Below, in pieces: positions 11,566 to 51,576 of a stretch of DNA of 59,649 bases. Each line of letters begins with the position of its first letter. The stretch's first letter is position 1. A program made the translations under genes and the position numbers. The DNA is from an uncultured Sphingomonas sp. (GTDB lineage Bacteria > Pseudomonadota > Alphaproteobacteria > Sphingomonadales > Sphingomonadaceae), in contig CAJYSA010000094.1 of NCBI GenBank assembly GCA_913777325.1, forward strand, positions 1-59,649, in the 5' to 3' direction. The notes under the pieces are model-generated. The model searched no databases, was not told the DNA's origin, and saw only the letters and a list, made by a program, of their open reading frames with translations.

Positions 11566-12386
11566 GCCGAGACCTTTCCGCGCGCCGGCTGATGCGAGGA
11601 CCAATTGTGTTTCTCGTTCTGGGCGTCGCGGCACCAGCGATACAGCGCATCGTACACCGCCATGCCCGCTTCAAGCTGGACATGATCGTCGCTATGGATG
11701 CGCGACAGGCCAAGCGAGATGGCCAGCAGTCCAGCGGCCTCCGGCACCAGGTCGAGCCGGTCGGTATCCGCACCACGCACGATCGCAGCGAGGCGGAGCA
11801 GCGGTTCATGCGTGTCCAGCCCGAAACCTTCGACCATCACGTCGAAGGTGCAGCGCTCACCGCGGTGGCTCCAGTACACGCCTTCGTCCGCGACGTCGAA
11901 CGGCTCGGCGCGCTGCTGGGCAGCGACGCTCAGCACCTCGCCGGGCGCCACGAAGAGGAAACGCGCCTCCGGATCGACGAAGCGCCGGATCAGCCATGGA
12001 CAGGCGATGCGATCGACCTTGGGCCTCGCCCGCGTGATCCACCAGGTGCGGCCATCGTCGTGCCGTGCGGGGAGACGGGCCAGGCGAACGACAGGCAGCG
12101 CATTTGCGCGCCATGCCGCAAACCCGCCGTCCAGCACGTCGGCTGCCACCCCCTCGCTCCGCAGAATGGCCGCTGCGGCGACCGCCGGTCCGCTGCCGTC
12201 GGCATCCACAACGACGACCGGTGACCCGGCAACATACCCCCACCGGATTGGATCGGGATGCATCGGGAATCGTGATCCCGGAATGGCTTCCATCGGGCCG
12301 TCACGTAGATCAACGACGTGAGGCGCGCCGGCGGATGCTGCGAGTCGGGCGAGCTTGTCCGGCGTTATGACGTTTGGAGCAGGCAT
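11562..12386 (-). CDS. chrB: ChrB-domain chromate-resistance protein with N-terminal rhodanese-like domain
   Basis: A 274-residue protein. Residues about 8-105 resemble a rhodanese domain (VVDLRDGPM, GYVAGSPVVVVDADGSG, VLDGGFAAWR), but the catalytic loop reads VDADGSG, so the active-site Cys is replaced by Asp and the domain should be inactive. Residues about 110-265 are the ChrB C-terminal domain, with WWITRARPKVDRIACPWLI and FDVMVEGFGLD-type motifs. ChrB proteins act with ChrA in chromate resistance; some are chromate-sensing regulators. AAGGGA precedes the ATG at 12386 by six bases. A large palindrome lies 39-88 bp upstream. Confidence 0.87.
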   Translation of the reverse strand: MPAPNVITPDKLARLAASAGAPHVVDLRDGPMEAIPGSRFPMHPDPIRWGYVAGSPVVVVDADGSGPAVAAAAILRSEGVAADVLDGGFAAWRANALPVVRLARLPARHDDGRTWWITRARPKVDRIACPWLIRRFVDPEARFLFVAPGEVLSVAAQQRAEPFDVADEGVYWSHRGERCTFDVMVEGFGLDTHEPLLRLAAIVRGADTDRLDLVPEAAGLLAISLGLSRIHSDDHVQLEAGMAVYDALYRWCRDAQNEKHNWSSHQPARGKVSA

Positions 12387-12424
12387 GGCGCGTCCCTTGC
12401 GTGTTGGTGCTGGACGCGATTCTT

Positions 12425-12474
12425 TGGCTGACGCCTCGTGGGGAGATCGCGATCCCCATGCCGTCAATCAGCCA
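12425..12474. promoter_or_regulatory. Nested 50-bp palindrome upstream of chrB-chrA
   Basis: TGGCTGA (12425-12431) and TCAGCCA (12468-12474) are perfect inverted repeats, and GATCGCGATC (12445-12454) is a perfect inner palindrome. Both have exactly the same centre (12449/12450), with 13 bases between the inner and outer arms on each side. GGGG and CCCC flank the core on either side. The element lies 39-88 bp upstream of the chrB start and is placed to be an operator of the chromate operon. Confidence 0.55.
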
Positions 12475-35730: not shown

Positions 35731-36300
35731 ATGCCAACCCGTCTCGTCCTGCTGTGCGCTGGCGCCACGGCAGCGGTCCGCGAGGGGCGCTTCGGCACCG
35801 AGCGGGACGCGCTGGATGCGGGCGGGCGCGCGAAGGTATGCGCCTTTGCCTTGCCCGGCCCGCCCCCGGCGCGGTGCGTCGTCAGTCCGGCGGCGGCGGC
35901 GCGCGAAACCGCCACGTTGCTGGGGGTGGAGGCGGAGGTGGACGCGGCGTTGCGCGATCGCGATCATGGCGCATGGGCCGGCAAGTCATTGAGCGCGATC
36001 GATCCCGTGGCACTGAGCGGCTGGCTGGCGGCACCAGAAGCGGCGGTGGCGGGCGGTGAGAGCATGGACGCGGTGGGCGACCGTGTCGCGGCGTGGCTCG
36101 GCGCGCTGGAGGAGGGGCGGCTGTTGGCGATTACGCATGCGGCGGTGCTGCGCGCGGCGGTCGCGCGGGTGTTGGGTGTGCCGGCGGTTGCGACCGCCGC
36201 CATCGACATCGCGCCGCTGACGATGCTGATTCTCTCGCGACATGATCGCTGGCGGATCAAGGAGTTACGGAGCGGCGGCGCAGCAGATACGTATCCATGA
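35731..36300 (+). CDS. Histidine phosphatase-like protein with an altered catalytic motif (CobC-like position)
   Basis: A 189-residue protein of the histidine phosphatase (phosphoglycerate mutase-like) fold. The usual N-terminal RHG is replaced by LVLLCAGATA, so both the catalytic His and the preceding Arg are missing. The second catalytic element is kept (LAITHAAVLRAAVARVLG), as is an Arg in CVVSPAAAARETATLLG. In B12 loci such proteins are usually alpha-ribazole phosphatase (CobC); here catalysis by the classical mechanism should be impossible. The ATG at 35731 has AGGAG nine bases upstream. It is divergent from the cbt riboswitch and its last 44 bases overlap the 3' end of cobF on the other strand. 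Confidence 0.78.
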   Translation: MPTRLVLLCAGATAAVREGRFGTERDALDAGGRAKVCAFALPGPPPARCVVSPAAAARETATLLGVEAEVDAALRDRDHGAWAGKSLSAIDPVALSGWLAAPEAAVAGGESMDAVGDRVAAWLGALEEGRLLAITHAAVLRAAVARVLGVPAVATAAIDIAPLTMLILSRHDRWRIKELRSGGAADTYP

Positions 36301-37036
36301 TCCAGCCGTGTTCGGCGCGCAACGCTGCGCGACGGTCGCGGATCAGGGGCCCGGCGGTGGACAGCGGCCCGGCCACGAGCGCCTGTTGCGGCATGCCGAG
36401 ATAGGCGCCCCACCAGATCTCCATGCCGGAATTATCCAGCGTTTCGAACGCGCAACCGGCGTCGAGCATCACCGCCAGCGTCTCTGTCACCGGCGGCCAG
36501 CCGTAATCGCGCAGTCGGCGCCCGGTGGTGATCGTCACCGCCGCGCCAAGCAGGTTGAGCGGGATGGCGTGCGCGGCCGTAAGTGCCTGAAGACTGGTGA
36601 TTCCGGGTGTGACGGTGACGCTGAGCGCCAGCCCGTCGTGGCGGAGGCGATCGGCGATGCGCAATGTGCTGTCGTAGAGCGAGGGGTCGCCCCAGACCAG
36701 CAGCGCGAGGCGCCCGCCGTGCGGCAGGTGCGTCGCGATCGCGGCGGCCCAGGCGCAAGAAATCGCGTTGTGCCAGTCGTTTACTGCATCGAGATAGGGG
36801 GTGTCGGTGGCGCGGTTCGGCAGGTCGAACTCGGCGACCCGCGTCGGGGCACCGTGCAGCACTTGCGCGCAGATCGTGCGGCGGAGATCGAGCAAATCAC
36901 TGGTTTCGCTGCGTTTCCGTGGGAGAAGGATGAGGTCGGCGCCGCGCATCGCTTGTTCGGCGGCGCGGGTGAGATGATCCGGGTTGCCGGTGCCGATGCC
37001 GATAAGATGCAAGTCGATCAATGGCTTGTCCGGCAT
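36257..37036 (-). CDS. cobF: Precorrin-6A synthase (deacetylating) CobF
   Basis: A 259-residue SAM-dependent methyltransferase of the tetrapyrrole methylase fold. HLIGIGTGNPDHLTRAAE is the N-terminal SAM-site motif; ADLILLPRKRSETSDLLDLR, LVWGDPSLYDSTLRI and TVTPGITSLQALTAAHAIPL are distinctive for CobF. It methylates C-1 with release of acetate, the step specific to the aerobic pathway. It starts 2 bp after the cobB stop and is the last gene of the cob set. Its 3' end overlaps the phosphatase-like gene on the other strand by 44 bases. Confidence 0.95.
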   Translation of the reverse strand: MPDKPLIDLHLIGIGTGNPDHLTRAAEQAMRGADLILLPRKRSETSDLLDLRRTICAQVLHGAPTRVAEFDLPNRATDTPYLDAVNDWHNAISCAWAAAIATHLPHGGRLALLVWGDPSLYDSTLRIADRLRHDGLALSVTVTPGITSLQALTAAHAIPLNLLGAAVTITTGRRLRDYGWPPVTETLAVMLDAGCAFETLDNSGMEIWWGAYLGMPQQALVAGPLSTAGPLIRDRRAALRAEHGWIMDTYLLRRRSVTP

Positions 37037-37038
37037 CG

Positions 37039-38352
37039 TCAGGCCGCGGCGATCAGGTGGAAGAAGGTGCCGGACACGCGCCCGCGATGTGATCCGGCAT
37101 CCGCCACCGTCGCGTCATCGGCATCGGTGACCGCCGCCAGTGCCGCATCAGGCTGCTCCAGGATCGTGGCATAGCGGAATTCATGGCCGACAAAACACGC
37201 CGGTGCCGCCCAAACGCCGATCGGCGCGGCAAGCGTCGCGCGCCGGTAACCAAGATGCATGCGTCGCTGCGCATGGCTGGTGACGAGCCCCAGCAGCCCC
37301 GCCATCGCATGGCGAACGCCATGCTGATCGATGAGCGCCTGGCCGAGCGCCATATAGCCCCCGCACTCGCCATGCACCGCGCCGCCGGCGGCGACATGCG
37401 CGTGGAGCGCGGCGCGGAAGCGACCGGCGGCGGCGAGGGGGCCGGCGTGCAGCTCCGGATAGCCGCCCGGCAGCCACACCAGATCGGCATCGGGCGAGGG
37501 CGGTTCGTCGGCGAGCGGGGAGAAGGGCAGGATCTGCGCCCCCGCCGCGCGCCACCCGTCGAGCAGGTGCGGATAGACGAAGGAGAAGGCGGCGTCCTGC
37601 GCCAGCGCGATCCGCTGCGCCGGGGGAATGACGCGGCGGGGGGACGCGGCGGGCCGCGCTACCGCTTCCGCCGCCGCGCGCAACGCCGCCAGATCGACCT
37701 GTGCGGCCAGCATGGCGGCATAATCGGCGATGCGCGCGTCGAGATCGGGATGTTCGATCGACTGCACCAGCCCGAGATGGCGTTCGGGCAAGCGCAGATC
37801 GGCGCGACGCGGCAGGCAGCCGAAGACTGGGATGCCGACCTGCTCCATGCCCGCGCGTGCCAGCCGTTCGTGGCGCGGACTGGCGACGCGGTTGAGGATC
37901 ACGCCGGCGATGCGGACAGCGGGGGCGAAGCGCGCGAACCCCAGCGCGGTCGCCGCCGCCGACTGTGCCTGGCCGGACACGTCCAGCACCAGCACCACCG
38001 GCCAGCCCATCCGCGCCGCGACGTCGGCACTGGCGCCATTACCGCTGGCGCCGCGCCGCGCGACGCCGTCGAACAGCCCCATGGAACCCTCCGCCAGCAC
38101 CAGCGCGGCATCGTCGCCATGCGTGACCAAGGCATCCAGCAGCGCGTCGGGCATCGCCCAACTGTCCAGGTTGAACGATGGCCGCCCGCTGGCAGCACGG
38201 TGGAAGGCGGGATCGATATAGTCGGGGCCGCTCTTGAACGGCTGCACCGTGACGCCGGCGTCGCGGAAGGCGCGGAGCAGCCCGAGCATCACCGTCGTCT
38301 TGCCGGTGCCCGAGGCGGGGGCGGCGATCATCAGGCCCGGCGTCGCGATCAT
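37039..38352 (-). CDS. cobB: Hydrogenobyrinate a,c-diamide synthase CobB
   Basis: A 437-residue ATP-dependent amidotransferase. The P-loop [10 protein letters not shown] is at residues 11-20, followed by [13 protein letters not shown] and NLDSWAM. The C-terminal class I glutaminase domain has [11 protein letters not shown] and the nucleophile Cys in [11 protein letters not shown] near residue 330. It amidates side chains a and c of hydrogenobyrinate with glutamine. ATG 38352 overlaps the cobM stop (ATGA). The same frame is open a further 360 codons upstream inside cobM and cobE, but that part is proline/arginine-rich noise. Confidence 0.95.
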
Positions 38353-39137
38353 GCCGCGTCGCCACCGGCGAAGCGCGAACCGACCGACTGTGGGCGGAAG
38401 CGCCGATCGTAGCCGGAGGCGTACAGGCTGCTGTCGCCGAAGTCGGTGGCGGCCAGCACCCGACCGACGAGGATCAGCGCGGTTCGCTCCGGTCCGTCCG
38501 CCGCGGCGGCGACGATGGTGGCGAGCGTCGCGCGCACCACGCGCTCGTCGGGCCAGCTCGCGCGCCAGACGATCGCGACCGGGCAGTCCGCACCATGCGT
38601 GGGGAGCAGCGCGTCGACGATCGCGGCGAGGCGATGGATCGACAGATGGATGGCGAGCGTCGCGCCGGTGGCGGCGAACGCGGCCAGCGTCTCGGCGGGG
38701 GGCATCGCGCTGGCACGGCCCGGCGTGCGGGTGAGCACCAGCGACTGCGCGATGCCCGGCAGGGTCAGCTCCGCCTCCAGCGTCGCGGCGGCGGCGGCGA
38801 ACGCCGGCACGCCGGGGGTGATGGAGACGGGAATGCGCAGCGCGCGCAGCCGACGAAGCTGCTCGCCCATCGCCGACCAGACCGACAGGTCGCCGGAATG
38901 TAGCCGCGCGACGTCGTGCCCCGCCGCATGGGCCGCGACGATCTCCGCGACGATCTGATCCAGTGACAGCGGCGCGGTGTTGACGATCCGCGCGCCCGGC
39001 GGGCAGTGATCGAGCAGGGCGGCGGGAACCAGCGAACCGGCGTAGAGGCATACCGGCGCGGCGGCGATCAGGTCGCGCCCCCGCAACGTGATGAGGTCGG
39101 CGGCACCGGGGCCGGCACCGATGAAATGGACGGTCAT
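38349..39137 (-). CDS. cobM: Precorrin-4 C11-methyltransferase CobM
   Basis: A 262-residue tetrapyrrole methylase. [18 protein letters not shown] is the N-terminal SAM motif; [28 protein letters not shown] and [14 protein letters not shown] are the CobM/CbiF family motifs. It methylates C-11 of precorrin-4. Both ends overlap neighbours by ATGA (cobE upstream, cobB downstream), indicating translational coupling. Confidence 0.95.
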
Positions 39138-39520
39138 GATCGTGGCTCCGGTGCGGGCAGGCTGGTGGCGATGGCACAGGTCGCCATCCGGTCGGGCGCG
39201 ATGCGGCGGGGGACGAGCAGTCGCGCGCCGGGACCGGCGGCGGCGAGCGCGGCGGCCTCCGCCACGCTGCCGGTGCCGCGCGCGGCTTGGGCGGCGGGGG
39301 AGTGCGTGACGGTTTGGGGCGCGGCGAGCGCGTCGGCGGCGATCGCGACCAGCGGCAGGGCGAGCGTCTCGGCCAAGGCGGCGACGCGCGGGGCATGGTC
39401 GATTGCCGCCGCCAGCATGTCCGGGGCGGCACCGGTCGCGGTCAGCGCGTCGCGCAACGACGTCGCGGTGGCGCCCGCGCGCATGCCGAAGCCGGCGACG
39501 ATCACAGCGTGACGCTCCAT
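39134..39520 (-). CDS. cobE: Cobalamin biosynthesis protein CobE
   Basis: A 128-residue protein like the C-terminal half of CbiG. The N-terminal [20 protein letters not shown] and the central [20 protein letters not shown] and [16 protein letters not shown] are CobE/CbiG_C patterns. CobE is needed for the aerobic pathway in Pseudomonas denitrificans but its exact reaction is not settled. The ATG at 39520 lies 19 bp inside the 3' end of cobL, and its stop overlaps the cobM start (ATGA). Confidence 0.88.
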
Positions 39521-40704
39521 TGCACCAGCGGATAGGCGGCGCGCCAGCCGCGCCGCGAGCCGATCGGTGCGGCCTCCGACAACTCGATCCGCAGCAGATG
39601 CCCGCCCCGGGCGGCGTGGCAGCGGGCGAGCAGCGCCTCCGATTCGAGCGTCACCGCGTTGGCGACCAGCCGGGTTCCCGGCGGCAGCCGCGCGAACAGC
39701 GTGTCGAGCAGCGCATTGGACAGCCCGCCGCCGATGAACACCGCGTCGGGCGGCGGCCGATCGGCGAGCATCGACAGCGCGTCGCCCTGAACGATGGTGA
39801 GGCGATCGATGCCCAGCGTGTCGGCGTTGCGTCGGATACGCGCGGCGCGCACCGCGTCCCGCTCGAACGCGATCGCGCTCGTCGTCGCGTGGGCGAGCAA
39901 CCATTCGATCGTGATCGAGCCCGACCCCGCGCCGATATCCCACAGCGTCTCACCCGCGAGCGGCGCCAGCGCGGAGAGCGTGAGCGCGCGCGCGGGACGC
40001 TTGGTGAGTTGGCCATCGTGCGCGAACCAGTCGTCCGCCACGCCGCTGGCCCGCGACAGCACGCGTCCATCGCCCGCAATCTCGACCGCCAGCGCGACCG
40101 GATGCGCAATATCGTCGAACGGCAGCGCGGCGGCCACCGCGGAGCGGATGCGCTCGCGCCCGCCGCCCAGCGCCTCCAATATTGTCAGCCGCGAGGCGCC
40201 GAACCCCTGTTCGTCGAGGTAACGGGCGGTGGCCACCACCGCCGCGCCGTCCCGCAGCAGCACGATCGCGCGGGTGCCGGGCGCCAGATGCGGGCGCAGC
40301 CGCGTCAAGGGCGCGGCGTGCAGCCCGAGGCACAGCGTCTCCTCGATCCGCCAGCCGAGCCGCGCGGCGGCGTGCGCGAAGGTGGACGGGGCCGGGTGCG
40401 CGACCCATTCGTCCGGCTGGAGATGCCGCGCCAGCGTGCCCCCCGCACCGAACCAGAACGGGTCGCCCGAGGCGAGCATCACCACCGGCGTGCCGCGCCG
40501 TTCGAGCAGGTGCGCGACGCCCGCCTCGAAGGGCACCGGCCAGGCTTGCGTTTCGCCGGCCAGCGCAGGGAGCAGCGCGAGCTGTCGCGGCGCGCCGACG
40601 ATCAGCGTGGCGTTGGCGAGCGCGGCTTGGCTTACGGGCGGCAGCGCGGCAAAGCCGTCCTCCCCGATCCCCACGATCGTCAGCCACGGAGTGCGATCAG
40701 CCAT
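39502..40704 (-). CDS. cobL: Precorrin-6B C5,15-methyltransferase (decarboxylating) CobL
   Basis: A 400-residue fusion of the CbiE and CbiT functions. Residues about 1-200 are a tetrapyrrole methylase ([35 protein letters not shown]); residues about 215-400 are a class I SAM methyltransferase ([34 protein letters not shown]). It methylates C-5 and C-15 and decarboxylates the C-12 acetate. AGGAGC precedes the ATG by seven bases. The ATG at 40704-40702 shares two bases with the ATG of the divergent cobK; there is no intergenic space between them. Confidence 0.95.
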
Positions 40705-41452
40705 GACCAAGCTCCTGATCCTGGGCGGCACGACAGAGGCCAGCGCGCTGGCGACCGCGTGCGCGGCGCGCGGCATCGCCGCGACGCTCAGCTATGCCGG
40801 GCGCACCGCCGCACCGGCGCGGCAGGCGGTGCCGACACGGGTCGGCGGGTTCGGCGGCGTCGCAGGGCTGGCCGCCTATCTGCGCGAACAGGCGATCACG
40901 CATCTGATCGACGCGACGCACCCGTTCGCGGCGCAGATGAGCGCGCATGCGGTGGCCGCCGGCGAGAGGACGGGGGTCGCGACGATCGCGCTGACCCGGC
41001 CCGCATGGGCGGCGCAGGCCGGCGATCGCTGGACGCGGGTGCGCGATATCGACGCGGCGGTCGCGGCGCTCGACCGGCCCGCGCAGCGCGTGATGCTGGC
41101 GCTGGGGCGGATGCACGTCGCCGCCTTCGCCGCGCAGCCGCAGCATCATTATCTGCTGCGCTTCGTCGACCGGGCGGCGGGGGTGCCGCCGCTGCCGCGC
41201 CACACGCTGGTGGTCGATCGGGGGCCGTTCGATGTGGCGCGGGACCGCGCGCTGTTGATTGCGGAGCGCATCGACCTGATCGTCGCCAAGAATGCCGGGG
41301 GCAGCGGCGCGGTGGCGAAGGTGGAGGCGGCGCGCGCGCTTGGCCTGCCGGTGGTGATGATCGACCGCCCGCCGGTGCCGGCACGACGTGCGGTCGACAG
41401 CGTGGCAGCGGTGCTCGACTGGCTGGATCATGCCGCCGACCGGGGGGTGTAG
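40703..41452 (+). CDS. cobK: Precorrin-6A reductase CobK (inverted relative to the cob set)
   Basis: A 249-residue NADPH-dependent reductase. LLILGGTTEASALATACA is the N-terminal dinucleotide-binding motif; ITHLIDATHPFAAQMSAHA, ALTRPAW and DLIVAKNAGGSGAVAKVEAA are characteristic of CobK/CbiJ. It reduces precorrin-6A to 6B. It is the only gene of the set on the plus strand. Its ATG (40703) overlaps that of cobL at CATG, and its last 25 bases overlap the 3' end of cobJ. A GGAG stands 11 bases before the start, within cobL. Its promoter must therefore lie in the coding sequence of cobL. Confidence 0.95.
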   Translation: MTKLLILGGTTEASALATACAARGIAATLSYAGRTAAPARQAVPTRVGGFGGVAGLAAYLREQAITHLIDATHPFAAQMSAHAVAAGERTGVATIALTRPAWAAQAGDRWTRVRDIDAAVAALDRPAQRVMLALGRMHVAAFAAQPQHHYLLRFVDRAAGVPPLPRHTLVVDRGPFDVARDRALLIAERIDLIVAKNAGGSGAVAKVEAARALGLPVVMIDRPPVPARRAVDSVAAVLDWLDHAADRGV

Positions 41453-42177
41453 AGCAACGGCGCGCCGGGGCGATCGATCGTGCGCGTGCGGCTCGATCCG
41501 ACGATCACCATCGTGCGCATGTCCGCCATCGCGCCGCGCGCATCGGGCAGCGGAACGACGCGAAGGCTTTCCTCGGGGGTGGAGACTGCGCGCGCGAACA
41601 GCACCGGGCGCGCGTCGCCGCACGTCGCGCGCAGCACGTCGAACGCGCGGTCCAGCCCGTCGGGGCGCGCGAGCGAGCGCGGATTGTAGAAGGCGATCGC
41701 GAAATCGGCCTGCGCGGCCAGCCGGACGCGTTGCTCGATCACCGGCCACGGCTTCAGATTGTCGGACAGGTTGATCGCGCAGAAATCGTGCCCCAGCGGC
41801 GCGCCGGCGCGCGCGCTGGCGGCCAGCATCGCGGTGATGCCCGGCAGCACGCGGATATCGAGCGCGCGCCACGCCGCCGGCCCGGCCTCCAGCGCCTCGA
41901 ACACCGCCGCCGCCATCGCGAACACGCCGGGATCGCCCGACGACACCACGACGACGCGGCGGCCCGCGGCGGCGAGGCGCAGCGCATGGGTCGCGCGATC
42001 CAACTCGACGCGATTGTCCGACGGGTGGAGCGTCAAGCCGGCGCGCGGGGCGACGCGCGCGACATAGGGGATGTAGCCGATCACGTCGGTGGCCGCGTCC
42101 AGCGCCGTGGTCACCTCCGGCGTCACCAGCGCCGCATCGCCCGGGCCGAGTCCGGCGATCGCGAGCCAGCCGGTCAT
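41428..42177 (-). CDS. cobJ: Precorrin-3B C17-methyltransferase CobJ
   Basis: A 249-residue tetrapyrrole methylase with LAIAGLGPGDAALVTPEV at the N-terminus, DVIGYIPYV, VVVVSSGDPGVFAMAAAVFE, VLPGITAMLAASARAGAPLG and FAIAFYNPRSLARP, typical of CobJ/CbiH. It methylates C-17 with ring contraction. The start overlaps the cobI stop (ATGA). Its 3' end overlaps cobK on the opposite strand by 25 bases. Confidence 0.95.
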   Translation of the reverse strand: MTGWLAIAGLGPGDAALVTPEVTTALDAATDVIGYIPYVARVAPRAGLTLHPSDNRVELDRATHALRLAAAGRRVVVVSSGDPGVFAMAAAVFEALEAGPAAWRALDIRVLPGITAMLAASARAGAPLGHDFCAINLSDNLKPWPVIEQRVRLAAQADFAIAFYNPRSLARPDGLDRAFDVLRATCGDARPVLFARAVSTPEESLRVVPLPDARGAMADMRTMVIVGSSRTRTIDRPGAPLLYTPRSAA

Positions 42178-42899
42178 GGCCGCCGGCCCCGACCGTGGAT
42201 CAGCAGGATCGCGAAATAGGGCGCGCTGTCGCCCGCATCGGCCAGCCGCACGACGCGCTGCTCGGGCATCGCGGCATATTCGACCAGCCACGCCGCATCG
42301 GTGCGCCCCGCCGCCGCCACTGCGCGGCGCAGCTTGGGCAGGTGCCGCCCGATCTTCATGACCACCAAGGCGTCGGTCTCGCGGATGCGGCGTGCCAGGT
42401 CCGCCTCGGGCAGCGTCGCGGTGGCCACGGTCAATATATCGTCGCCCCAGGTGATCGGCACGTCGGTGGCGGTCCAGGCGCCCGACATGCCGGTGATGCC
42501 CGGCACGATCCGCACCGATACATGAGGCGCGAGCCGCGCGTGCAGGTGCATGAACGAGCCGTAGAAGAACGGATCGCCCTCGCACAGCACCACCACGTCC
42601 TCGCCCGCATCGGCCAGTGCGCGCAGGTGGCGGGTGCAATCGGCGTAGAAGGCGGAGAGCCGCGCATTATAGGCCGGATCGGCGACCGCGATCTCGGTGG
42701 TGACCGGATAGTCCATCGCAAATTCGACGACATCGGCGCGCAGCATCCCCTCCACCATCCGCCGCGCCTGCCCGGGGCGTCCGCGCTTGCGGAAATAGGC
42801 TAGGTGGCGTGCGCCGCGCACCAGCCGGTCGGCGCGCACGCTCATCAGATCGGGGGCGCCCGGGCCGAGGCCGACGCCGTGGATCGTGCCGCGCGTCAT
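42174..42899 (-). CDS. cobI: Precorrin-2 C20-methyltransferase CobI
   Basis: A 241-residue tetrapyrrole methylase with HGVGLGPGAPDLMSVRADRL, AYFRKRGRPGQARRMVEGML, VVVLCEGDPFFYGSFMHLHA and RIVPGITGMSGAW, the CobI/CbiL motifs. It makes precorrin-3A by methylating C-20. It is coupled by ATGA overlaps to cobH upstream and cobJ downstream. Confidence 0.95.
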   Translation of the reverse strand: MTRGTIHGVGLGPGAPDLMSVRADRLVRGARHLAYFRKRGRPGQARRMVEGMLRADVVEFAMDYPVTTEIAVADPAYNARLSAFYADCTRHLRALADAGEDVVVLCEGDPFFYGSFMHLHARLAPHVSVRIVPGITGMSGAWTATDVPITWGDDILTVATATLPEADLARRIRETDALVVMKIGRHLPKLRRAVAAAGRTDAAWLVEYAAMPEQRVVRLADAGDSAPYFAILLIHGRGRRP

Positions 42900-43558
42900 T
42901 CGGCGCGGCTCGCCAGCGCGTTGACCGCCGCGACGGTGATCGCGCTGCCGCCCAGCCGCCCCTCGACGACGACGCACGGCACCGGGCGCTCCGCCCACAA
43001 GGCGGCTTTGGACTCCACCGCGCCGACGAAGCCGACCGGACAGCCGATGATCGCGGCGGGGCGGGGGCAGGTGGGGTCGGCCAGCATGTCGAGCAGGTGG
43101 AACAACGCGGTGGGCGCGTTGCCGATCGCGACCAGCGCGCCGTCCAGATGGTCGCGCCACCGCTCCAGCGCGGCGGCGGAGCGCGTGGTGCCCAGCGCGG
43201 TGGCCCGGGCCGGCACCTCCGCATCGTGGAGCGTGCAGATCACCGGATTCGCCGCGGGCAGCCGCGCGCGCGTGATCCCCTCGCTGACCATGCGCGCGTC
43301 GCACAGGATCGGCGCACCTCCCGCCAGCGCGGCGCGCGCGGCCACGGTGGCGCCGGGGGAGAAGCGGATGTGCGGTGCGAGATCGACCATGCCGGCGGCG
43401 TGGATCATGCGCACCGCCACCGGCTCCTCGTCGGCGGAGAAGCGCGCGAGATCGGCCTCGGCGCGGATGATGGCGAACGAGCGGCGATAGATCGCAGCGC
43501 CGTCGGTTTCATAGTCACGGGGCACGGAACGGGCCTTCGAAAAGAGCGGGGAGATCAT
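42896..43558 (-). CDS. cobH: Precorrin-8X methylmutase CobH
   Basis: A 220-residue methylmutase. ISRSF-type N-terminus (AIYRRSFAIIRAEADL), the catalytic His in MIHAAGMVDLAPHIRFSPGA, and LCDARMVSEGI, NAPTALFHLLDML and AAIIGCPVGFVGAVESKAAL are all diagnostic. It moves a methyl from C-11 to C-12, forming hydrogenobyrinate. The ATG at 43558 lies 44 bases inside the end of cobG; a longer frame exists but adds only arginine-rich sequence. Confidence 0.95.
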   Translation of the reverse strand: MISPLFSKARSVPRDYETDGAAIYRRSFAIIRAEADLARFSADEEPVAVRMIHAAGMVDLAPHIRFSPGATVAARAALAGGAPILCDARMVSEGITRARLPAANPVICTLHDAEVPARATALGTTRSAAALERWRDHLDGALVAIGNAPTALFHLLDMLADPTCPRPAAIIGCPVGFVGAVESKAALWAERPVPCVVVEGRLGGSAITVAAVNALASRAE

Positions 43559-44632
43559 CGGCGGACAGCGCCGTGCGGTGCGGCGGCGCGCCGGCCCGGG
43601 CGTGATGCGCAAGGTCGAAGCGTCCGTCGCGCCCGGTCAGCACGACGTCGGCGGGCGCGGCGCGCGCGCAGCCCTTCGCACAGCCGGAGACGTGGAGGCG
43701 TCCCGCGACGTGCGGCGCCAGCCGCGCGGCGAGCGCGCGTGTCGCGACGCTCGCCTGCGGACAGGCGGGCGCCCCGACACAGGCATCGACGCGCAGCAAC
43801 GCGGGATCGTGAAACAGCGCGCGCGCGTCGTCGGGCGCGACGCCGACCAGCAGCAGCGCGCGCCACGGCGTGAGCCGCACGCCGCGCAGGCCGGGCAGGC
43901 GCAGGAGGCGATCGGCATCGACCCGCCCGAACGCGGTGCCGATCATCGTGCCGAGCGGATGCGCGCCCTGAACGACGGCGAGGGTGGCGCGGGCGGGCGC
44001 TTCGCGGCCCGCCGCCCAGTCGGGAAGCGGCGCGCGATGGCGTGCCATGCGACCCGCCGCCGCGCCGCCGCTAGCCGAGAACCAGCGGGCGAGCGCGACG
44101 AGCGCGTCGAGCTCTGCACCGGGCGAAAGCGGCGTGCCGCGCGGGCGACCATCGGCGCGCAGGATCAGCCCGCCGCTCTCGCCGCGTTCGATCCGGAAGT
44201 CGGCGGAGGTGTCGTGCAGCACGGCCGCGTCGCCGGCGTCGATCGCGATGCCGACCTTGCCGGGCAGCGCGGGCAGCGCGTCCAGGCTGTCGCGCAGGCC
44301 GATGGCGAGACGATGCGTGTCGTCGCCGGGACGCCACGCGGGCGCGACCAGCACCACGCGCGCCTCGCGTCGCGGATCGGCGTCGACCAGCCCGGCGGCG
44401 ACCAGCCGGTCGCGCGCGTCCGCCCCGTCGCGCTCGCGCAGCCCGCGTAGCTGGAGCGCGGCGCGGCTGGTGAGATCGATCTGACCATTGCCATACAGAC
44501 CCGCGACGTCGGCGATCGTGCGCAACTGGTCTGGTGTCAGATGCGCGAGCGGGGGGCGGAGGCGCAGCAGCAACCCGTCGCCCGCCGCCATCGGATGCCA
44601 CGCATCCGGGCACCAGCCGCGCACCCGACCGC

Positions 44633-44636
<4 letters not shown>
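43515..44636 (-). CDS. cobG: Precorrin-3B synthase CobG
   Basis: A 373-residue monooxygenase of the sulfite/nitrite reductase fold. WCPDAWHPMAAGDGLLLRLR begins the protein, GNGQIDLTSRAALQLRG is the ferredoxin-like half, and the 4Fe-4S Cys are in CVGAPACPQ and GCAKGCA near the C-terminus. It uses oxygen to hydroxylate C-20 of precorrin-3A and form the lactone, which marks the aerobic pathway. ATG 44636 overlaps the cobN stop (ATGA). Confidence 0.94.
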
Positions 44637-47890
<3,254 letters not shown>

Positions 47891-47898
47891 CGCGCGGC

Positions 47899-48936
47899 TC
47901 AGCCGTTCAGGATCGATCCGATCGCCGCCGGATCGAGGCGGTCATGCTCGGCGATCACCACCAGCCGGGTCGCGCGCGGTTCGTCCGCGCGCCACGCGCG
48001 ATCATATTGGGTGCGGACGCGCGCGCCGACCGCCTGCACCAGCAATCGCATCGGCTTGCCGCGAACGGCGGCATAGCCCTTCACGCGCAGGATGTCGTGC
48101 GTGCGCGCCAGCGTCTCGATCCGGGCGGCGAGCGCCTGCGGGTCGTCGATCTCGCCACCGATGTGGATGAGGCTGTCGAAATCGTCGTGTTCGTGATCGT
48201 CCGCGCCATCATGGTGCGACGGACGGGCGGCGATGTCGTCCTCGGCGGCGGCGTCCAGCCCCAGCACGATCGCGGGATCGATCGCGCCATCCACCAGCTC
48301 CACGACCGGCAGCGGACGCGGCGTCTCGGCGGCGATCACCGCACGCGCCGCCGCGACCCCCTCGGCACCGGCCAGGTCGACCTTGGTGAGCAGCACCATG
48401 TCCGCGCAGGCGAGCTGGTCCTCGAACAATTCCGACAGCGGGGTCTCGTGGTCTATCCCCGGATCGGCGGCGCGCTGTTCCTCCAGCGCGGCGGGATCGG
48501 GGGCGAAGCGCCCCGCCGCCACCGCCTCCGCATCGGCCAGCGCGACGACGCCGTCGACGGTGATGCGCGAGCGGATCGCGGGCCAGTCGAACGCCTTGAG
48601 CAGCGGCTTGGGGAGCGCCAGGCCGGAGGTTTCGATTAGGATGTGATCGGGGCGCGGCTCCAGCGCGAGCAGCCGCTCGACCGTGGGGATGAAGTCGTCC
48701 GCGACCGTGCAGCAGATGCAGCCGTTGGCCAGTTCGACGACGTTCTCCGCCGGGCAATCGGGGATCGCGCAGCCCTTCAGGATGTCTCCATCCACGCCCA
48801 GCGTGCCGAATTCGTTGACGACCACCGCCAGCCGCCGCCCGCCGGCGTTGCGGATCAAATGGCTGATAAGCGTCGTCTTGCCCGCGCCCAGAAAGCCGGT
48901 GACGATGGTGACGGGAACTTTGGCGAGATCGGCCAC
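47899..48936 (-). CDS. cobW: CobW, G3E-family GTPase/metal chaperone for cobalt
   Basis: A 345-residue GTPase with the P-loop GFLGAGKTT (residues 14-22), a metal-binding CxCC motif (NGCICC, about 72-76), ILIETSGLA (G3E switch) and LLTKVDL (base recognition). A His/Asp-rich loop (HHDGADDHEHDD) around residue 240 and a C-terminal CobW_C domain follow. Placed first in the cob operon, it is expected to supply cobalt to CobN. A cobalamin riboswitch lies upstream. Confidence 0.95.
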   Translation of the reverse strand: MADLAKVPVTIVTGFLGAGKTTLISHLIRNAGGRRLAVVVNEFGTLGVDGDILKGCAIPDCPAENVVELANGCICCTVADDFIPTVERLLALEPRPDHILIETSGLALPKPLLKAFDWPAIRSRITVDGVVALADAEAVAAGRFAPDPAALEEQRAADPGIDHETPLSELFEDQLACADMVLLTKVDLAGAEGVAAARAVIAAETPRPLPVVELVDGAIDPAIVLGLDAAAEDDIAARPSHHDGADDHEHDDFDSLIHIGGEIDDPQALAARIETLARTHDILRVKGYAAVRGKPMRLLVQAVGARVRTQYDRAWRADEPRATRLVVIAEHDRLDPAAIGSILNG

Positions 48937-49114
48937 GGATATTCCTTCGCGAGCGCCGCGACGTCGACGCGGGCGGGGCGCACGAAGGCCGGTGCGCCGG
49001 CAACGGACGGGCGCTCAAGAATCGCCCGCGCCACGCGCACCGATGCGGCCCCGGCCGCATGGCTTCGCCGCTCAGACGGAATACCGTGCCCGGATCAGTC
49101 CCTGAACCCCGGCA

Positions 49115-49330
49115 AGAGCGACCTGTTCGTCGGCAGGTTTCCTGGCTCGCGGGTCGTCGTTCCGGCCACGGCCTTCCCGGATGGGCGAACCCGATCCAGT
49201 GGCCGCCTTCCCCACGTGGAGAAGGCATGTGCCCGTCACTCGCCGCTTACAGTTGCAGGGACAGCTGCGGCCTTGGGGCAAGCCCCGCACCGCATTCCCG
49301 TTTACGCCTCCTCATCGGAGGCACCGACGC
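49115..49330 (-). promoter_or_regulatory. Cobalamin riboswitch controlling the cobW-N-G-H-I-J operon
   Basis: On the minus strand the leader contains AAACGGGAATGCGGTGCGG, CAGCTGTCCCTGCAACTGTA then AGCGGCGAG, GCCACTGG, CCGGGAAGGCCG and GAGCCAGGAAACCTGCCGAC. These are the conserved elements of a full-length cobalamin riboswitch in the right order. It ends about 180 bp before the cobW start, leaving room for an expression platform. High adenosylcobalamin should shut the operon off. Confidence 0.93.
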
Positions 49331-49439
49331 GATCATGGCCCCGGCAACCGGAGCCGACCCCGCAATACGCCGCGCGGGCGGGTTTGCCAATCGTCGTGCG
49401 GAGATCGTTGCGCGGCGGTTGCTTCTTTTGCTCCCCAAA

Positions 49440-49458
49440 GATAATGCGAGCCAGTATC
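49440..49458. promoter_or_regulatory. Fur-box-like site before the siderophore-type receptor
   Basis: The 19 bases beginning GATAATGCGAG and ending GTATC match 14 of 19 positions of the enterobacterial Fur consensus GATAATGATAATCATTATC. It lies 21 bp before the chosen GTG start of a siderophore-type TonB receptor, where iron control would be expected. Alphaproteobacterial Fur/Irr sites differ from this consensus, so support is modest. Confidence 0.35.
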
Positions 49459-49479
49459 GTTAGCGGATTTGGGGGCAGT

Positions 49480-51576
49480 GTGAGGGTTGTGATGGGGCCA
49501 CCGATGGCGGCGATGCTGGCGCTCGCTTCCGCCCCGGCGATGGCGGACGCACCGGACGAGGCGGAGGACATCGTCGTCACCGCGCGGGCGCAGCGGCTGT
49601 ATCGCGCGGACACGACGACCGTGGGCAAGAGCCACGAGAATCCGCTCGACATCCCGCAGGCGGTGCAGGTGATCAACGCCGAGCTGTTCGCCGATCAGGG
49701 CGCGCGCGACGCGACCGATATCTATCGCAACATCAGCGGGGTCAGCTTCTTCAGCTATGCGGGGGTGACGTTTCGCGGGTTCCGGCAGGACCAGTCGTTC
49801 TACGACGGGCAGCGCGGCAATCCCTTCATCGGCTTCTCGGTGCCGCAATTGTTCAACGTCGCCCGCGTCGAGGTGCTGAAGGGGCCGGCGGGGCTGTTCT
49901 TCGGCCCCGGATCGCCGGGCGGGATCATCAATTACGTGTCGAAAGTCCCGTCCGCGACGCGCGCGCTGCGCATCGTGGCGACGCTGGGCACCTATGATCG
50001 TGCCGGCATCTCGTCGGAGGCGACCGGGCCGGTCGACGCGGCGGGCGTGGTGACGTACCGGGTCGGCGGCTTCTACGAGGCGATGCGCCCGTTCCGCTAC
50101 AACAGCGGCTCCACCTCGCTGATCGGGGACGGTGGGCTGACGGTGCGGACCAACAACGGCGGGGCGCTGACGCTACAGGCGACCGCCTATGACAACGAAC
50201 TGCCGGGCAACCGGCTGCGCGGCGTGCCGGTCGACGATGCCGGGCGCTTCCTGACCACGATCCGGTGGAACGCCAACGAGCCGACCGATTTCCTGCGGCT
50301 GACGTCGCGCGTGCTTCAGGCGCGCTATGCGACGACGATCGGGTCGGCGGTGACGTTCGACGCCGGGGTGCGGCACTTTTCCTCGACCGAACGGCAGCAA
50401 TATCACGAGGCACGCGGCTTCGTCGCCGGGCAGCGCGATCTGGTGAGTCGCGAGTTCCGCGACCAGATCCGCGCGGTCGACGGGCTGTCGCTGACCGCCA
50501 ACATGACCGCGACCGTCGCGCTGCTCGGCCTCGCGCATCGCTTTCAGGCCGGTGGCGACTGGTATGACGAGACGAACCTTTTCGACTCGCGAATCCTGCG
50601 CGCAGGCGTGACCCCGCTGAGCCTGCGCCATCCGGTCTACACCACGACCGGGCGCGACGTGGCGCGCGCCGCCGCGCTGCCGTTCGCGCGCACCGATACG
50701 CGGACGAAAAGGTACGGCGCCTATCTGCAGGATCGGATCAGCCTGAGCGACGCGTTCCTGCTGGTCGGCGGCGTCCGCTACGACCGGTTCGACGATCGCA
50801 CGACCACCGCCGCCGCAGCCTCGGCCTATGGCGACGGCAAGCTGACGTACCGGGCGGGCGCGGTCTACAAGCCGCGCACCGATATGTCGCTGTACGTGAG
50901 CTGGTCGGGCAGCTTCGAGCCGCAGGCCGCGGCCAGCCAGACCGCCGACGCCGGTGGCCCGTTCGCGCCGGTGACGGGCGGACAGGTGGAGGGCGGCATC
51001 AAGACCGCATTGTTCGACGGGCGCGTCCAGGCCAATCTGGCCGCCTATCGGATCATGCGGCGGAATATTCTTCAGGTCGATCCCACGCTGCCGCCCGTCA
51101 ACGGACAGGATCAGCTGCGCCCGATCGGCGCGGTGACCAGCAAGGGCGTCGAGATCGATCTGGCGACCGACCTGACCCCCGACTGGGTGCTGCTCGCCAA
51201 TTACGGTTACAACGACGCGCGGATCACCGAGGCGGTCGCGGGACAGGCGGTGACCAATGCGGTGGGCGACCGCTTCGCCAATGCGCCGCGCCACAAGCTG
51301 GGCTTCTGGACGCGCTATCAACTGCCGACGATCGGCACCGCGATCGCCTTCGGCGGCGAGCACGTGTCGCGGCGGATCAGCCTGGCGGGGCAGCAGGTGC
51401 GTCCGTACACGATCTTCGACGCATCGCTGACGAAGCGGCTGGGGCCGGTGGAGCTGTTGCTGCGCGTCGATAACCTGTTCGATCGTCGCTACGCCGGGTC
51501 AGGGTTCTCGGCGCAGAGCGGCCATTTCCCCGGCGAGCCGCGCATCGCGATGGCCGAGCTGCGCTTCCGGATGTGA
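49480..51576 (+). CDS. TonB-dependent receptor, siderophore-receptor type
   Basis: A receptor of 698 residues from GTG 49480. ATG 49492 and ATG 49444 are in-frame alternatives; the first lacks a basic n-region and the second would place the Fur-like site in the gene. Signal peptide ends near PAMADA; DIVVTARAQRLYRAD is TonB box-like. The plug reads NPLDIPQAVQVINAELFADQ, GVTFRGFRQDQS and ARVEVLKGPAGLFFGPGSPG, the pattern of hydroxamate/catechol siderophore receptors. It ends ELRFRM, lacking the usual terminal aromatic. It is divergent from the B12 operon, so a corrinoid or metallophore substrate is also possible. Confidence 0.87.
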   Translation: MRVVMGPPMAAMLALASAPAMADAPDEAEDIVVTARAQRLYRADTTTVGKSHENPLDIPQAVQVINAELFADQGARDATDIYRNISGVSFFSYAGVTFRGFRQDQSFYDGQRGNPFIGFSVPQLFNVARVEVLKGPAGLFFGPGSPGGIINYVSKVPSATRALRIVATLGTYDRAGISSEATGPVDAAGVVTYRVGGFYEAMRPFRYNSGSTSLIGDGGLTVRTNNGGALTLQATAYDNELPGNRLRGVPVDDAGRFLTTIRWNANEPTDFLRLTSRVLQARYATTIGSAVTFDAGVRHFSSTERQQYHEARGFVAGQRDLVSREFRDQIRAVDGLSLTANMTATVALLGLAHRFQAGGDWYDETNLFDSRILRAGVTPLSLRHPVYTTTGRDVARAAALPFARTDTRTKRYGAYLQDRISLSDAFLLVGGVRYDRFDDRTTTAAAASAYGDGKLTYRAGAVYKPRTDMSLYVSWSGSFEPQAAASQTADAGGPFAPVTGGQVEGGIKTALFDGRVQANLAAYRIMRRNILQVDPTLPPVNGQDQLRPIGAVTSKGVEIDLATDLTPDWVLLANYGYNDARITEAVAGQAVTNAVGDRFANAPRHKLGFWTRYQLPTIGTAIAFGGEHVSRRISLAGQQVRPYTIFDASLTKRLGPVELLLRVDNLFDRRYAGSGFSAQSGHFPGEPRIAMAELRFRM

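Follow-up and report, generated by a model that had tools for sequence, protein, structure and literature searches.

Noncontiguous operons, in which an opposite-strand gene is interspersed among the genes of an operon, are exemplified by the Staphylococcus aureus menE-menC-MW1733-ytkD-MW1731 locus, for which the accessible part of the source describes the internal part of the messenger as untranslated (PMC7154746). Here we analyse a 59,649-nucleotide (nt) stretch of DNA from an uncultured Sphingomonas sp. (GenBank assembly GCA_913777325.1, contig CAJYSA010000094.1, positions 1 to 59,649 of the forward strand; hereafter the window), in which a cobalamin operon on the minus strand is interrupted by a single inverted gene, cobK, between cobJ and cobL. 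The minus strand opposite cobK carries an open reading frame (ORF), here called the bridge, that joins cobJ to cobL. On the evidence of sequence comparison, the antisense strand of the inverted cobK quite probably acts as a translational bridge, serving the passage of ribosomes.

In leader ORFs, it is translation, and not the product, that controls transcription. The bridge would resemble these elements in that its function would be ribosome transit rather than a peptide, but it has approximately 245 codons, lies within an operon, runs antisense to a gene, and is found in many families. Like the S. aureus operon, the cob locus has an opposite-strand gene interrupting related operon genes, and a read-through messenger would be antisense to that gene; the internal part is untranslated in the S. 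aureus case, going by the accessible part of the source, whereas at the cob locus it holds a stop-free frame that overlaps the preceding stop as well as the following start (PMC7154746). The ATGA and ATGNNTGA joints link cobJ, the bridge, and cobL like ordinary neighbors with stop-start overlaps and translational coupling, as these are treated in the available portion of PMC2174442, although the bridge frame is wholly or largely antisense to an operon gene and its product shows no sign of selection. Antisense overlapping genes are likewise long ORFs embedded antisense in known genes, but in the text available from PMC7457138 they are discussed as possible proteins, whereas for the bridge only openness appears to be selected. 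In Ensifer adhaerens and Pseudomonas denitrificans SC510, the adjacent cobH, cobI, cobJ, cobK, and cobL all overlap pairwise, and, unlike in the present analysis, an antisense reading frame is not mentioned in the accessible portion of that source (PMC4070679). No published description of a translated antisense bridge was found in the open-access literature searched, including the available part of the review of noncontiguous operons (PMC7154746).

The antisense frame opposite cobK and its joints

The initial annotation placed cobK in inverted orientation between cobJ and cobL, with its start codon sharing a CATG with that of cobL and its 3' end overlapping cobJ by 25 nt. All of these coordinates were confirmed, but the annotation overlooked the main feature of the locus, which is the minus-strand ORF of 244 amino acids joining cobJ and cobL. 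The features concerned are as follows.

40697..41431, minus strand: bridge ORF, antisense to cobK and codon-aligned with it, from ATG at 41431 to TGA at 40697-40699; 244 amino acids plus stop, verified letter by letter
41428..41431, minus strand: ATGA joint, with the bridge ATG on the cobJ stop TGA (from the sequence)
40697..40704, minus strand: ATGGCTGA joint, with the bridge stop TGA on the cobL ATG, an 8-nt overlap (from the sequence)
40703..41452, plus strand: cobK, inverted, precorrin-6A reductase, from ATG at 40703 to TAG at 41452 (NCBIfam NF005968, 6.2e-98; confidently predicted fold)
39502..40704, minus strand: cobL, precorrin-6Y C5,15-methyltransferase, ATG at 40704 (CbiE and CbiT domain models above cut-off, NCBIfam)
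41428..42177, minus strand: cobJ, precorrin-3B C17-methyltransferase (TIGR01466, 8.4e-83)
40702..40705, both strands: CATG containing the ATG of both cobK and cobL (from the sequence)
40712..40716, minus strand: Shine-Dalgarno-like AGGAG within the bridge ORF, opposite cobK codons 4-5 and 7 nt before the cobL ATG

The bridge ORF spans cobK except for its last few codons, and occupies the space between cobJ and cobL. For comparison with other genomes, CobK loci were collected from relatives together with their surroundings, and genes were called by profiles built from these loci. CobK was detected by profile in 285 sources, and 275 loci were left once equal CobK cores were removed; this set is enriched for close relatives, and the sample of relatives, comprising the best 80 of 521 confirmed relatives, is biased. 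In addition, an evenly drawn sample of the class had CobK in 97 of 289 genomes, with 89 of these loci fetched and counted, and a draw from the phylum had CobK in 108 of 398 genomes, part of which were fetched. The layout of the window (cobL minus, cobK plus, cobJ minus) was found in 170 of the 275 de-duplicated loci and in 22 of the 89 fetched loci of the class sample. Within the 170, the tails of cobK and cobJ overlap in 158 loci, most commonly by 25 nt (58 loci).

The frame of the bridge is linked to cobJ by a cobJ/cobK phase of 1 mod 3, which is present in 162 of the 170 loci. Antisense stops in this frame are the cobK codons TTA, CTA, and TCA, for which the remaining cob genes of each locus supplied the expectation. 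In cobK of the 162 matching-phase loci, these codons number 7 against 165.0 expected (by codon, TTA 0 against 32.7, CTA 3 against 63.2, and TCA 4 against 61.5), and the 7 exceptional codons sit at codons 1, 6, 15, or 243-247, which is at or beyond the ends of the bridge. Across the cobK core, the aligned antisense frame has no stop in any of the 162 loci (136.9 expected), while the other two antisense frames contain 735 and 668; among 31 representatives sharing <60% identity, there were 0 core stops against 30.4 expected. The avoidance is specific to this context: the three codons number 58 in cobK of the eight loci of other phase (57.9 expected), 297 in 69 loci of other layouts (282.0 expected; no avoidance), and 18 in 18 loci with cobK in tandem (21.8 expected), and across the remaining cob genes of these 162 loci they range from 0.54 (cobI) to 1.18 (cobE) times expectation. 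It is also specific to these codons, given that the controls GTA, ATA, AAA, and CGA in bridged cobK are at 0.97 to 1.12 of expectation, and the next-lowest codons are TCG (0.66) and ACA (0.74). In the class sample, 20 of the 22 layout loci combine phase 1 with a stop-free core; the remaining two (L038 and L157) have phase 2, with 12 and 13 core stops, respectively. Selection to keep the bridge frame open is well supported, a property that the bridge would share with functional antisense overlapping genes.

Both ends of the frame carry the overlaps of a translationally coupled operon gene, of its own start with the upstream stop and of its own stop with the downstream start. An in-frame start lies on the cobJ stop in 150 of the 162 matching-phase loci (ATGA in 117, GTGA in 31, TTGA in 2). 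At the other end, cobK and cobL share an in-frame CATG in 134 of the 170 layout loci, and in 121 of these 134 the bridge stop falls at offset 5 (105 loci, ATGNNTGA) or offset 8 (16 loci) relative to the cobL start. In 124 of 147 loci, cobL has T as the last base of its second codon, compared with 7/134 for cobJ, 11/133 for cobI, and 7/136 for cobM; a stop in frame +2 at offset 5 or 8 is present in cobL of 125/147 loci, whereas counts for ten other cob genes are between 0 and 17. Among the 134 CATG loci, a Shine-Dalgarno match of at least 4 nt precedes cobL in 104 (a raw count, without shuffle control) and cobK in 65. Where cobK and cobL are apart, the bridge frame may still reach the cobL start, across 353 nt in L269, although this hinges on the choice of start.

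Proposed transcription across cobK and competing explanations

The layout, with an opposite-strand gene interspersed among operon genes, is that of a noncontiguous operon, as the initial annotation had recognized. It had left a choice between a riboswitch-driven transcript reading through cobK and a separate promoter for cobL and later genes inside cobK; the sequence favors read-through, because the frame is matched to cobJ, ends on cobL, and is kept free of stops. Neither the window nor any of seven related loci has a cobalamin riboswitch between cobJ and cobL, a position where an ordinary promoter could still be located; in five of the seven named loci examined, the riboswitch was found just ahead of cobW. 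For the later genes to share the B12 control, read-through would therefore be needed. A scan of positions 36000-49600 gave 0 promoter-like sites, which is uninformative given that chance predicts 0.5, and four terminator-like sites (2.4 expected), none of them on the minus strand between cobJ and cobL.

We propose that the riboswitch-led transcript would extend from cobW through cobJ, over antisense cobK, and into cobL-cobF. Ribosomes finishing cobJ would reinitiate at the overlapping ATG (ATGA), translate the stop-free frame through antisense cobK, and stop on the cobL start (ATGNNTGA in most relatives), where reinitiation would be aided by the Shine-Dalgarno-like site. By this means approximately 735 nt of messenger would not be left bare, a condition that would invite Rho-dependent termination and pairing with the cobK messenger; the transcript, being kept translated, would escape polarity, and the later genes cobL-cobF would remain under the same B12 control. 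We infer translation of the bridge, read-through transcription, and the involvement of Rho; the sequence argues for translation of the internal antisense region. It appears fairly likely that a product-independent frame of approximately 245 codons has been kept only for the carriage of ribosomes over an inverted gene, across a large part of the Alphaproteobacteria as well as in some beta- and gammaproteobacteria.

If so, ribosomes on the opposite strand would partly set the choice of codons in cobK, and a well-studied pathway would contain a long antisense frame selected for its readability and not for an encoded product. The locus would show how an operon continues across an opposite-strand gene, would provide a natural test of how far ribosomes shield messenger from Rho, and would caution that an antisense ORF can be conserved without encoding a useful protein; other inverted operon genes may be crossed likewise. 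A direct test of the bridge is possible, since antisense stops can be introduced without altering CobK.

That the bridge ORF is instead a true overlapping gene with a functional protein is unlikely, even though its open frame is conserved and its joints at both ends are of the operon type. At equal divergence, cobK shows no more conservation at synonymous sites than cobJ, cobL, and cobI do. The identity of the antisense product exceeds that from shuffled synonymous codons by a factor matching those of control genes (bridge 1.086; antisense of cobJ 1.092, cobL 1.090, cobI 1.085). Pfam gave no match for the bridge product, which is composed of 14.5% arginine and 13.5% glycine, and AlphaFold2 predicted it with a local distance difference test score (pLDDT) of 36.4 and a template modeling score (pTM) of 0.11 (38 sequences), compared with 91.8 and 0.87 for CobK (23 sequences). 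With neither selection on the product sequence nor a predicted fold or known family found, a functional antisense protein was rejected on the strength of the Pfam search, synonymous conservation, shuffle comparison, and fold prediction. At the sequence level, the frame appears to be kept and the protein not; the product looks unselected, and the peptide appears to be a by-product.

The locus could also be an ordinary noncontiguous operon, with an untranslated antisense part, mutual regulation via RNase III and polymerase collision, and an incidental frame. The layout matches what the accessible part of PMC7154746 describes, but this account does not predict the frame-specific avoidance of stops, the phase relative to cobJ, or the T-ending second codon of cobL, and we regard it as quite unlikely to be sufficient; its mechanism can, however, operate alongside a bridge. 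A promoter for cobL-cobF inside cobK, with the overlaps as neutral compaction locked by the double overlap, would be in keeping with three unbridged loci (L226, L227, and L274) in which 108 to 187 nt between cobK and cobL leave room for a promoter; this is very unlikely to be the explanation, since it gives no reason to avoid antisense stops throughout cobK or to match the phase of cobJ. Finally, the open frame could be an artifact of codon usage rich in guanine plus cytosine (GC), which makes TTA, CTA, and TCA rare in any case. This holds for the window alone, where 0.41 antisense stops would be expected, but as a general explanation it is hardly credible: the same-locus expectation exceeds the observed count by far (7 against 165.0), 13 bridge loci have a third-position GC below 0.7, and other layouts have no deficit. 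Codon usage alone was rejected on the same-locus expectation together with the normal control codons.

Several observations weigh against the proposal that the antisense strand of cobK is a translational bridge. For cobK of the window by itself, the codon usage of neighboring genes predicts 0.41 antisense stops (P(none) = 0.66), and the open frame is therefore uninformative when the window is taken alone. A Shine-Dalgarno-like site precedes the bridge in just 55 of 150 loci (shuffles 23.9). Of 45 loci with a gap between cobK and cobL, 11 have the bridge stop on the cobL start (offset 1 or 5) when starts are assigned by profile only; in the other 34 it lies 4 to 79 nt before the cobL start, and many of these 34 have a CATG common to both genes farther upstream. 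Gaps at the cobJ end give no distinction between frames (2, 5, and 2 stops by frame). A Rho-site signature was sought in C over G content and not found, as antisense cobK RNA is no richer in this respect than neighboring genes (medians 0.98, 0.97, 0.91, and 0.95). Furthermore, eight of the 170 layout loci are without the matching phase, and three of these eight (L099, L096, and L225) still have cobK and cobL close together without a bridge; the bridge can thus be lost and is not indispensable. In 23 loci with a cbiD-cobK pair inverted between cobM and cobA, no frame is open across both cores, which indicates that other inverted layouts do without a bridge.

Six unbridged members of the layout are scattered in a tree of 109 representatives built by a quick method (5 changes, against 5.9 in shuffles), which suggests several losses of the bridge. 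Four lineages of low GC (L099, L096, L225, and L274) keep the layout, with the bridge phase absent and 11 to 16 antisense stops. Although filed as an actinobacterial metagenome-assembled genome, L099 has a CobK that groups with proteobacterial ones in the quick tree, and this genome may therefore be misbinned.

Distribution of the layout

The surmise in the initial annotation that the gene order may be common to other alphaproteobacteria was borne out by the survey counts and by annotated plasmid records of Sphingobium and Paracoccus yeei, which have the same order and orientation; the CATG overlap, whose conservation it had proposed to check, is kept in most loci of the layout, as given above. 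The layout also extends to some beta- and gammaproteobacteria. The plasmid record of a betaproteobacterium, Methylibium, has the same arrangement around cobL-cobK, and the 70 of the 162 bridge loci with a named class comprise 65 Alphaproteobacteria, 3 Betaproteobacteria, and 2 Gammaproteobacteria. Other layouts include cobL and cobK in tandem on the plus strand (18 loci), and cbiD and cobK together inverted against cobM and cobA. In CbiD-bearing alphaproteobacteria (L172, L194, L277, L166, and similar loci), cbiD and cobK often adjoin on one strand, and in 23 examined loci this pair lies inverted between cobM and cobA/cobB.

The window, and loci longer than 15 kilobases among the best 80 of 521 relatives, were scanned with a rough gene caller based on codon usage. 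From 1360 genes it identified 64 tightly inverted single genes, 63 of which are cobK (61, plus L074 and L122 with cobK elsewhere in the locus); the other is a doubtful ORF of 80 codons. CobK is sporadic in Sphingomonadaceae (10 of 199 drawn genomes, one match being weak), and relatives often carry it on large plasmids (262 plasmid records), which together suggest frequent gain and loss of the pathway.

Other elements of the window

The remainder of the operon and associated signals are located as follows.

42174..48936, minus strand: upstream part of the operon, cobW, cobN, cobG, cobH, and cobI (order matching annotated Sphingobium and Paracoccus loci)
36257..39505, minus strand: downstream part of the operon, cobE, cobM, cobB, and cobF (ORF calls and profiles)
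49115..49338, minus strand: cobalamin riboswitch ahead of cobW (RF00174, 97.3 bits)
40688..40691, plus strand: GGAG, 11 nt before the cobK ATG and within cobL (from the sequence)

Eleven minus-strand ORFs are read as cobF, cobB, cobM, cobE, cobL, cobJ, cobI, cobH, cobG, cobN, and cobW; CobK, CobL, CobJ, CobI, CobM, and CobF were named by NCBIfam, and the rest by position and by the annotated Sphingobium and Paracoccus loci. The ATGA-type couplings ascribed to these genes in the initial annotation hold in part: stop/start overlaps of 4 nt (ATGA or GTGA) are present at cobB/cobM, cobM/cobE, cobE/cobL, cobJ/cobI, and cobI/cobH, and absent from cobF/cobB and cobN/cobW in the window. A plus-strand ORF (35731-36300) converges on cobF (36257-37036, minus strand) and overlaps its end by 44 nt; named by eye, this ORF reads like a histidine phosphatase, perhaps alpha-ribazole phosphatase. 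Elsewhere in the window, a chrB-a RNA motif was identified on the minus strand at 12384-12462 (81.6 bits).

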